DNA of 64,000 nucleotides from assembly GCA_900079685.1 (NCBI GenBank), contig LT599018.1:1510970-1574969 (forward strand), in the 5' to 3' direction. Shown here in pieces: positions 60,464 to 63,790 of the stretch. The notes beneath the pieces are model-generated. The model saw only the letters and a list, made by a program, of their open reading frames with translations, was not told the DNA's origin and ran no database searches. The number at the start of each line of letters is the position of its first letter. The stretch's first letter is position 1. Made by a program: the position numbers and the translations under genes. The stretch comes from an uncultured delta proteobacterium (GTDB lineage Bacteria; Desulfobacterota; Desulfovibrionia; Desulfovibrionales; Desulfovibrionaceae).

Positions 60464-61681
60464 CTACTTTTGCAGCATGTCCACGACCTGGGCCACGTCC
60501 TTGTCGCCCCGGCCGGAGAGGTTCACCAGAAGGATGGCTTCCGGCGGCAGCTTCGGGGCCATCTTGATGGCCTGGGCCAAGGCGTGGGCCGACTCCAGCG
60601 CCGGAATGATGCCTTCCGTCTTGCTTAACGCCAGGAAAGCGTCCACGGCCTCGGCGTCGGATATAGCCACGTATTCCGCCCGGCCCTCGTCTTTCAGCAG
60701 GCTGTGTTCCGGCCCGACGCCGGGGTAATCCAGCCCGGCGGAAATGGAATGCACGGGCGCAATGTCTTCCCCGTCGCGCAGGACGTAGGAATAGGACCCG
60801 TGCAGCACGCCGGGCTCGCCGTAGCTTAAGGTCGCGGCATGCTCGCCCATCTTCGTACCTCTGCCGCCGGGTTCGACGCCGATGAGGCGAACGTCCTTGT
60901 CCCCGATGAAGGGATGGAACAGGCCGATGGCGTTGGAACCGCCACCCACGCAGGCGAGGCAATAGTCCGGGAGCCGCCCTTCCGCTTCCAGCATTTGCCT
61001 GCGGGCCTCGTTTCCGATGACGGACTGAAAGTCGCGGACCATGGCCGGGTACGGGTGCGGGCCGACGGCCGAGCCGATCAGGTAGAAGATGTCCGGGTCC
61101 GCGATCCAGGCTTCCAGGGCGGCGTCCACGGCCTCCTTCAGCCCGGCCCCGCCGGTGGTGACGGAGACCACTTCCGCGCCGAGCATGCGCATGCGTTCCA
61201 CGTTCAGGTGCTGGCGCTCAACGTCTATAGCGCCCATGTACACCGTGCAGCGCATGCCCATGAGCGCCGCCGTGGCGGCGGTTGCCACGCCGTGCTGGCC
61301 CGCGCCGGTTTCCGCGATGATTTTGGTTTTGCCCATGCGCCGCGCCAGCAGGATCTGGCCCAGGGTGTTGTTGACCTTGTGCGCGCCGAGATGGTTCAGG
61401 TCTTCGCGCTTGAGGTATATTTTCGCGCCGCCCAGCTTTTCCGTAAGGTTTTTGGCGAAGAAGAGCGGCGTTTCCCGGCCGGAATAATTTTTGAGGTAGT
61501 ACGCCAGTTCCGCCTGAAAGGCCGGGTCGGCTTTGGCCGCGGCGTAGGCGTCCGCGATGGCGTTGATGGTCGGCGCAAGCGCCGGCGGGATGTGCTGGCC
61601 GCCGTAGGGGCCGAAGAACCCGGCGGCGCCGGAGAATTTTTCACAAAAGGACGAAGAGGGGGAGGATAGAGCTTGAGCCAT
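60464..61681 (-). CDS. trpB: Tryptophan synthase beta subunit
   Basis: PLP enzyme joining indole and serine into tryptophan. The 405 residues are the TrpB1 size. The PLP lysine is in [13 protein letters not shown], the phosphate loop is GGGSNAIG, and the indole-channel segment [12 protein letters not shown] is kept. The gene is not beside trpA or any other trp gene in the window. It is preceded by a textbook tryptophan attenuator with a leader peptide at 61826-61879, so its expression should rise when tryptophan is scarce. Downstream it converges with the response regulator. A solitary, attenuated trpB suggests a second copy used in salvage of indole, or a dispersed pathway. Confidence 0.95.
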
Positions 61682-61736
61682 TGTTGTTCACCACCTTGGC
61701 CTGGGGGCCTGTTTATCACGGCAGTGAACCTAAACG

Positions 61737-61767
61737 AAAAAACCGCTAGCAGTTTCACTGCCGCGGT
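61737..61767 (-). terminator. Attenuator terminator (3:4 hairpin) in trpB leader
   Basis: On the minus strand CCGCGGCAGT pairs with ACTGC..GCGG around GAA and is followed by six T. Its CCGCGGC part (complement of 61760-61766) can instead pair with GCCGTGG (complement of 61814-61820), the upstream antiterminator arm, so only one structure can form. Confidence 0.75.
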
Positions 61768-61825
61768 TCTGTTGCTTGCATTGTCTTAAAAAATCAATGC
61801 GCGTGTCACCATACCACGGCTCTGG

Positions 61826-61879
61826 TTACCAGAGCCGCCACCATGAAAAGGTCGTAACGGAGGTGTCGCGCATGTTCAT
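61826..61879 (-). CDS. trpL: TrpL-type leader peptide of the trpB attenuator
   Basis: A 17-residue reading frame MNMRDTSVTTFSWWRLW with three Trp codons, the last just before TAA, ahead of the trpB gene. Its end forms the 5' half of a perfect hairpin: CGGCTCTGG with CCAGAGCCG, the stop codon being the loop. A promoter lies just upstream (61886-61914), placing the likely transcription start at the first ATG, so no ordinary ribosome-binding site is available; initiation may be leaderless or from a start further inside. The Trp-rich end resembles E. coli TrpL, which has the WWRT end. It is regulatory rather than a functional product. Confidence 0.78.
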   Translation of the reverse strand: MNMRDTSVTTFSWWRLW

Positions 61880-61885
61880 GGGGCT

Positions 61886-61914
61886 GATATATGCCTGATG
61901 CGTCCGCACGTCAA
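61886..61914 (-). promoter_or_regulatory. Sigma-70 promoter of trpB
   Basis: On the minus strand TTGACG (complement of 61909-61914), 17 bases, then TATATC (complement of 61886-61891). The expected start is at about 61879, the first base of the leader peptide. No clear trp operator is seen. Confidence 0.6.
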
Positions 61915-62017
61915 GCCCCTTGGTAGCGGCTCAGAGCCGTTCTCCCGAAAATGTTGCCTTTTCGGTTCATTTTTGCCACACTCCCCCGGAACGCACCATT
62001 CCGAAGGAAAAAACCGT

Positions 62018-62950
62018 ATGGCCGATCTCCCGAAAATTGACGTCCTCATCAACGTTTTCGGCAAGCCCTACCAGACCATGCTGGCCCTGCTCTCGCTTTT
62101 GCGCCATTCCGGGCAGCACATCGGCACGGTCTATTTCCAGGAAGAGCCGTGCACCGCCGAATTCGAACGGCGGGACCACTCGCAGATTCTGCGGCTTCTG
62201 GGCGACAGGGCGGTCCAGTATCAGGCGAAACACTGGTGCGGCATAAGCACCACGGACGTCTCCCGCCTCACCGAGGAGGATTACCGGTTGTCCATGCGGT
62301 ACCAGTACGGGTGGGAGAACGCCAAACAGCCGTATGTTCTGCTGATCCACAACGATATCGAGGTCACCGGGGATATTGCCGGCGCGCTCCTTGGCGCCAT
62401 CGGCGAGGCCACGGGCGCGGGGCAGATCGGCCAGTGCTGGTGGTGCCCGGCGTTCGAGGCCGGGGCCTGCTCGCCGGAGCGGTACACGGCATTCAAGCCC
62501 AAGTACCACCAACTCATGTACATGTATAACACGGGCATGGATTACACCAAGCGGCGCGCCTACAACCTGGGCCTGAACCAGTCGTTCTGGGACAACCCCT
62601 GGCCCCTGCCCGAATGCCGCCTGAACGAGTGGTGCGCGCTGATCGACCTGAAAAAGGCCCGGCCCGCCACCATGCCCTACGGCAACGCCGCGCCCATAGG
62701 GGCCAAGTACCCTTCCGGCTCCAAAATCGGGGAAAACTGGGACCGGGACGTGAACCTGGATACGGCCGTGCAGTGGTTCCGGGACATGAGCCTTGCCGGG
62801 CACACCTTTACGCACTACCCCATCGAGCAATACGTTATCCACGACCGTCTGGGTTGCACCAAGCTCGACAGCGCGGAAAAATACGTCCAGGCGGAAATGG
62901 CGGCCAAACTGCGGCTGGCGGAAGACTACCCCGACGCGTTGCGCGCCTGA
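62018..62950 (+). CDS. Glycosyltransferase-like protein of unknown substrate
   Basis: A 310-residue cytoplasmic protein with a GT-A-like start. KIDVLINVFGKPYQTMLALLSLLRHSG is the first Rossmann strand, and VLLIHNDIEVTGDI carries a DxE/DxD-like donor motif near 109-122. The rest, including GQIGQCWWCPAFEAGACS and YMYNTGMDYTKRRAY, is not family-like, so substrate and role are unknown. The start at 62018 follows AAGGA; a longer frame from 61898 crosses the trpB promoter and is not supported. It lies back-to-back with trpB and is followed by a metallo-beta-lactamase-fold gene 33 bases later, possibly in one operon. Confidence 0.65.
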   Translation: MADLPKIDVLINVFGKPYQTMLALLSLLRHSGQHIGTVYFQEEPCTAEFERRDHSQILRLLGDRAVQYQAKHWCGISTTDVSRLTEEDYRLSMRYQYGWENAKQPYVLLIHNDIEVTGDIAGALLGAIGEATGAGQIGQCWWCPAFEAGACSPERYTAFKPKYHQLMYMYNTGMDYTKRRAYNLGLNQSFWDNPWPLPECRLNEWCALIDLKKARPATMPYGNAAPIGAKYPSGSKIGENWDRDVNLDTAVQWFRDMSLAGHTFTHYPIEQYVIHDRLGCTKLDSAEKYVQAEMAAKLRLAEDYPDALRA

Positions 62951-62983: not shown

Positions 62984-63790
62984 ATGCGCCTTGTCGTGCT
63001 GGCCGACAACAATACCCTTATCGACAACTACTACATGGGAGAACCCGCCGTCTGCTATTACATCGAGGACGGGGACGCGAAAATCCTGCTGGACGCCGGG
63101 TATTCGGACCTGTTCATCAAAAACGCCCACCTGCTGGGGGTGGATTTGCACCAGGTCACGCATGTGGCGCTCTCCCACGGACACAACGACCATTCGCGCG
63201 GGCTGGCCTTTTTGCACGAGCACGTCCTGCCGCGCAAAATCGCCGTGGTCGCCCACCCGGACGCGCTGGCGGAGCGGCACGACAACGGCACGCCCATCGG
63301 CTGCCCGCTGGGCAGGGCCTTTCTGGAAGCGCAATACGCGCTGACCCTGACCCGCGAGCCGTTCGCCTTTGGCGAAAACCTGGTTTTCCTGGGCGAGATC
63401 CCCTCGTACAACGATTTCGAGAGGACGAAACCCATGGGCGTGATGCGCGATAAAAACGGCGAGCGGGACGACTTTGTGCTGGACGATTCAGCCATGGCCT
63501 GCACCTGCGGGGACGGGCTGTTCATTATCACCGGCTGCTCGCACAGCGGGATCTGCAACATCATCGAGCACGCCAAACGCGTTTGCGGCAAGGAAAAGAT
63601 ACTCGGGGTCATCGGCGGGTTTCATCTCTTCGAGGTGTCCGAGCAGCTCACGCGGACGATCCGGTACTTCCGGGACAACGGGATCGACACCCTCTACCCC
63701 TGCCATTGCGTCTCGTTCGCGGCAAAGGCGGAAATCCACAAACACATCCCGGTCCGCGACGTGGGCGTGGGGCTGGAGATCACCGCGTAG
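62984..63790 (+). CDS. Metallo-beta-lactamase-fold hydrolase (DHPPP-like subgroup)
   Basis: Zinc-dependent hydrolase of 268 residues. The first metal motif is SHGHNDHSRG (near 64-73), a deviation from HxHxDH in which Gly precedes His; other ligands are in TGCSHSG near 183-189 and GGFHLFE near 209-215. It is similar to the 7,8-dihydropterin-6-methyl-4-(beta-D-ribofuranosyl)aminobenzene-5'-phosphate-synthase-like proteins, which are widespread and poorly characterised. The substrate cannot be named. The ribosome-binding site is CCGGAG. It follows a glycosyltransferase-like gene and is followed by a 30-base perfect palindrome. Confidence 0.85.
   Translation: MRLVVLADNNTLIDNYYMGEPAVCYYIEDGDAKILLDAGYSDLFIKNAHLLGVDLHQVTHVALSHGHNDHSRGLAFLHEHVLPRKIAVVAHPDALAERHDNGTPIGCPLGRAFLEAQYALTLTREPFAFGENLVFLGEIPSYNDFERTKPMGVMRDKNGERDDFVLDDSAMACTCGDGLFIITGCSHSGICNIIEHAKRVCGKEKILGVIGGFHLFEVSEQLTRTIRYFRDNGIDTLYPCHCVSFAAKAEIHKHIPVRDVGVGLEITA

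Follow-up and report, generated by a model that had tools for sequence, protein, structure and literature searches.

A solitary trpB in the Desulfovibrionales is preceded by a conserved, apparently leaderless tryptophan attenuator that points to indole salvage

In a 64,000-nucleotide stretch of the genome of an uncultured member of the Desulfovibrionaceae (contig LT599018.1; hereafter the window, whose coordinates are used throughout), a solitary gene for the beta subunit of tryptophan synthase, trpB, is preceded by a complete transcription attenuator of the trp type. The same leader recurs upstream of a widespread second group of trpB genes in the order, which is one of sulfate-reducing bacteria, with its Trp codons retained and its stems covarying, and taken together the evidence gives good support to a Trp attenuator that spans the order, is predicted to be leaderless and controls a probable salvage trpB. 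We hold with high confidence that the element is a ribosome-mediated, tRNA-Trp-sensing transcription attenuator of a trpB whose product would salvage indole, and that it would belong to a salvage regulon of three units.

Results

All parts of the attenuator lie on the minus strand, 5' of trpB on the same strand. The promoter (61886-61914) comprises TTGACG (61914-61909), a 17-nt spacer and TATATC (61891-61886), and from its position transcription is predicted to begin at 61879, the A of the ATG of a short leader open reading frame. This frame, MNMRDTSVTTFSWWRLW (61826-61879), in which WW or WWW is kept in relatives, is predicted to be leaderless, without a Shine-Dalgarno sequence, and ends in a TAA codon (61828-61826) that forms the loop of a perfect 1:2 hairpin, the anti-antiterminator (CGGCTCTGG-TAA-CCAGAGCCG; 61817-61837; -18.5 kcal/mol). 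The arm GCCGTGG of segment 2 (61814-61820) can pair instead with the arm CCGCGGC of segment 3 (61760-61766), giving an antiterminator 2:3 of 7 bp (-18.3 kcal/mol when the two regions are folded together), and the 3:4 hairpin, AACCGCGGCAGT-GAA-ACTGCTAGCGGTT (61768-61741), with six T at 61742-61737, constitutes an intrinsic terminator (61737-61768; -16.7 kcal/mol with flanking bases) that is also matched in a terminator scan. The leader strand folds more stably than 200 of 200 dinucleotide shuffles (z -3.4). The original prediction, of a complete trp-type attenuator before a solitary trpB, is borne out base for base, the strand being the minus strand: promoter pair, leader frame, hairpin with stop-codon loop, antiterminator arms and terminator with its T-run were all found, with every coordinate correct. 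On the plus strand, a divergent gene adjoins the leader (62020-62950; protein beginning MADLPKIDVLINVFGK) and has no NCBIfam match; a second gene, at 62984-63790, encodes a probable metallo-beta-lactamase-fold hydrolase (weak match only).

In operation, RNA polymerase would start at the leader ATG and a ribosome would load straight onto the 5'-terminal AUG, with no Shine-Dalgarno to guide it. When charged Trp-tRNA is ample, the Trp codons would be read and segment 2 would be blocked by the 1:2 hairpin or by the ribosome itself, leaving the 3:4 terminator to form and transcription to end before trpB; when it is scarce, the ribosome would stall at WW, covering segment 1, and the 2:3 pairing would allow trpB to be transcribed.

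The gene under this control (60464-61681, minus strand) encodes a solo tryptophan synthase beta subunit of 405 aa and of the TrpB1 type, scoring 583.8 bits against NCBIfam TIGR00263, whose equivalog cut-off is 392.45; it falls far under the cut-offs of the TrpB-like models NF009057 and TIGR01415 and is not a TrpB2. It is the sole trpB found in its genome (4.0 Mb), in which profile searches, matching in 14 of 14 control genomes, found neither trpA nor trpC nor chorismate-binding trpE. Because the genome is about 95% complete, a trp gene might be missing from the assembly; the same three genes are likewise missing from three genomes that are 96-98% complete (G034, G343, G011). Tryptophanase was searched for and was not found. 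TrpB alone joins indole and serine, and external indole, together with serine, is most likely what the lone enzyme here turns into tryptophan. An indole-salvage role had been proposed from the window alone; since trpA, trpC and trpE are absent from the genome, salvage is now the best reading and the proposal is strengthened.

Two kinds of trpB are found among genomes of the order: one adjoins trpA (50-58% identical to the trpB described here), and the other is solo and shares a protein group with the present gene (about 60-89% identity). Of 19 solo trpB genes, 17 have upstream of them a TTGAC box, 34-40 nt, an ATG and a short open reading frame with WW, as against none of 12 trpA-linked (operonic) trpB upstream regions and none of 9,500 dinucleotide-shuffled upstream regions; given 17/19 at solo genes versus 0/9,500 in shuffles, the arrangement is not a product of chance. 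Attenuation of a solo trpB had been thought uncommon, but it proves to be the usual state in the order and no local oddity. Orthologous upstream regions, when aligned, keep the Trp codons and show compensatory changes in the stems across the order; the two exceptions among the 19 loci (L096 and L109, in G008 and G004) lack the leader entirely, rather than bearing one stripped of its Trp codons or its compensation. The trpB at L096 still has a TTGACA box.

A covariance model, R1, was built from an alignment of 17 leaders. Of 348 genomes from the order, 99 contain matches to it, mostly with E-values of 1e-9 to 1e-22, and a solo trpB lies downstream at 88 of the 95 matched loci examined. Weak R1 matches in other genomes (L213, L214, L215, L224) were discarded, resembling chance terminators at gene ends or near tRNA. 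In an alignment of 98 distinct R1 matches, fitted to the structure, the 1:2 and 3:4 stems are paired in 96% of cells and two-sided changes number 134, versus 30 in shuffles and at most 21 with slid pairing, and a smaller unfitted alignment agrees (14 versus 4.5); across the 98 sequences, compensatory changes fall in 4 of the 7 pairs of 1:2 and in most pairs of 3:4. The antiterminator 2:3 is paired in 93% of cells (17 sequences) and shows no two-sided changes, because its arms must pair with segments 1 and 4 as well. The mutually exclusive terminator and antiterminator, with 1:2, 2:3 and 3:4 all present and kept, are accompanied by two-sided covariation in 1:2 and 3:4 only.

The Rfam family Trp_leader (RF00513) reaches 19.8 bits here against a gathering threshold of 41 and has no match in 20 related loci, so that Rfam is at present blind to these leaders; no Rfam attenuator family attains its threshold for the leader, and the other weak Rfam matches near it, obtained at permissive thresholds, were rejected as each under its own cut-off. 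A search of the open-licence literature found no paper on trp attenuation or a solo-trpB leader in Desulfovibrio, and a 2004 survey of delta-proteobacterial regulation does not mention trp.

The leader frame had been judged to leave no room for a Shine-Dalgarno sequence, rightly so, and the design is a conserved one: of 93 leaders, 92 place TTGAC 34-40 nt 5' of the leader ATG, and the last has it 43 nt away and offers a second possible ATG at 37. Sequence ahead of the leader ATG shows little complementarity to the 16S rRNA tail (median -2.7 kcal/mol), and sequence ahead of the structural gene shows much (median -8.5 kcal/mol, with no gene above -6, where the best of several candidate starts was taken for each gene). 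The constant spacing and the weak complementarity predict that translation of the leader frame begins at a 5'-terminal AUG with no Shine-Dalgarno, and the leaderless leader peptide looks like a rule for the whole order.

Two further Trp-codon leaders occur in the same genome. One, MNPRTNPTFEGLWWRLP (GLWWRLP; L153:3541-3721, G000:C2, minus strand), precedes a PaaK-family aryl-CoA ligase; a sister genome, G001, has a similar leader upstream of the start of the same ligase, and in G006, G009, G020, G024 and G032 orthologues of the ligase lie close 3' of trpBA on the same strand. The other has CWWWLV towards its end, is followed by a terminator and precedes a complete TRAP transporter, dctPQM (L155:3286-3500, equivalent to G000:C1:2113285-2113499); its resemblance to R1 is weak (E 0.0036), and it was accepted on its anatomy and on orthologous leaders. 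W-rich leaders with the same promoter spacing precede orthologous TRAP genes in six genomes (G011, G253, G071, G037, G039, G091), those printed in full carrying a terminator as well, and the seven genomes together represent four families; most other TRAP orthologues examined have no W-rich leader. IorAB is present in the genome, and one can conceive of a route to tryptophan, employing IorAB, that starts from indoleacetate and passes by way of its CoA thioester and indolepyruvate. What the ligase and the transporter act on we infer from regulation and neighbourhood alone, and the shared leaders suggest that trpB, the aryl-CoA ligase and the TRAP transporter form a small tryptophan-salvage regulon.

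Leaders of the same kind, rich in Phe and Tyr and in one type reading YFWYFYF, precede other aromatic amino-acid genes of the order (L217, L219-L221, L223, L225-L228): those for phenylacetate-CoA ligase and a symporter, and genes resembling those for ADH synthase and dehydroquinate synthase II. In G001, G341 and G159, trpE too has possible Trp-codon leaders 5' of it (WRGFWW, WRW and SWWRRQ; L231, L232 and L230).

A fifth segment (GGTTCACTGCCGTG; 61717-61730, minus strand) lies directly 3' of the U-run and, by duplex energies, is complementary both to segment 3 (3:5, -23.9 kcal/mol) and to the trpB ribosome-binding site, or segment 6 (AAGGTGGTGAAC; 61686-61697, minus strand; 5:6, -17.1 kcal/mol). 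It accounts for a third stem noted in the leader from the outset, of GGCAGTGAA with TTCACTGCC: both strings were found, at 61762-61754 and 61728-61720 of the minus strand, and the stem is real, segment 5 being complementary to terminator arm 3 and recurring in many genera. The ribosome-binding site resembles segment 3, so that the RNA could adopt either 3:5 or the combination of 3:4 with 5:6.

Discussion

The attenuator might be genuine and the protein not a salvage enzyme at all, acting on another substrate or as a spare beta subunit whose Trp control was inherited. Such a role would fit the retention of trpA in 35 of 48 leader-bearing genomes and the coexistence, in most of them, of the solo gene with a trpA-linked trpB, a wider setting that qualifies the early description of a trpB apart from the trp operon. 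It would also fit the residues at the six LBCA-Res6 positions linked to stand-alone activity (E, E, T, S, A, M), for which the solo TrpB here has A, A, T, S, S and Y, agreeing at two of six; the set was dropped as a mark of the solo group, within which these residues are not conserved, and as the stand-alone set is lacking, activity without TrpA is a property that we infer. Yet the protein passes the TrpB equivalog cut-off, its best match among solved structures is the ancestral stand-alone TrpB LBCA-b, and in trpA-less genomes, this one included, the solo gene is the last trpB left; Trp-codon control kept across the order would likewise argue that tryptophan is the product. We consider a role other than salvage unlikely, and favour indole salvage, which in the majority of genomes that keep trpA would be added to synthesis.

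The fifth segment raises the prospect that translation is controlled too, with segment 5 masking the trpB ribosome-binding site until 3:5 pairing frees it. Of 70 leaders, 29, belonging to about eleven genera, show significant 3:5 complementarity (p<=0.05), against 3.5 expected, a count in which leaders of one genus are not independent; here 5:6 forms a hairpin of -20.0 kcal/mol over the ribosome-binding site (p=0.025), and genera g54 and g55 show a similar triple complementarity. Against this, 5:6 reaches significance at just 10 loci out of 56, where about 3 are expected, chiefly in the lineage of the present genome and in g54 and g55; many leaders with 3:5 lack it, and in genus g45 both are largely missing. 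As a general property of all leaders, 5:6 was rejected, being seen only in some clades. The terminator, by contrast, is conserved throughout, which marks transcription control as the core, and we regard an added translational layer as somewhat improbable. A fuller version, protein-free dual control in which segment 5 pairs either with arm 3, leaving the site free, or with the ribosome-binding site, closing it, all within the three-unit regulon of trpB, ligase and transporter, strikes us as slightly more doubtful again; were it true, read-through transcripts still holding the terminator hairpin would stay silent. On the same RNA, segment 5 should be unable to sway termination, because it is untranscribed when the decision is made. 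That the whole structure is a constitutive terminator or a decayed remnant, with a Trp-rich frame by chance, is very hard to credit when Trp codons, spacing and covarying stems are kept over the order and the arrangement never arose among the shuffled regions. Tryptophan-dependent attenuation of transcription is the reading that we carry forward.

Read in this way, the leader gives the second trpB group of the order both a condition of use, Trp shortage, and a likely role, indole salvage, and predicts that leaderless leader peptides are the norm among the trp-type attenuators found there. Shared Trp-codon leaders also predict functions for the aryl-CoA ligase and the TRAP transporter that lie beyond the reach of protein sequence alone. 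The genome described here may further offer a testable case of cross-feeding, in which tryptophan synthesis has been lost and a regulated use of neighbours' indole has been kept.

Relation to known systems

Several characterised systems share part of this design. Stand-alone TrpB of Pelodictyon luteolum is, like the protein here, of the TrpB1 type, and works without TrpA through an activity linked to six residues (PMC11917138), which are not conserved in the present protein. In Thermococcus kodakarensis, with its TrpB1 and TrpB2, a trpA-unlinked trpB has been tied to indole salvage (Hiyama 2014, as cited in PMC11085991); that system is archaeal, the excerpted account describes no Trp attenuator, and the protein here is of the TrpB1 and not the TrpB2 type. 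The closest precedent for the leader frame is trpL of Sinorhizobium meliloti (rnTrpL/peTrpL), where the 5' end of the RNA is established to be the trpL ATG and the leader frame is leaderless (PMC7298713), as is predicted here from spacing; the S. meliloti attenuator, which acts in trans, differs in being alphaproteobacterial and in controlling trpE(G). With the attenuator of the E. coli trp operon (trpL; RF00513) the present leader has in common a short frame with tandem Trp codons, the alternatives 1:2, 2:3 and 3:4, and a terminator with a U-run, whereas it controls a single salvage gene in place of trpEDCBA, lacks a Shine-Dalgarno for the leader frame, carries an extra segment 5 and scores under the Rfam threshold. 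The mechanism, then, is known; what is new is its targets, its leaderless design and its fifth segment.
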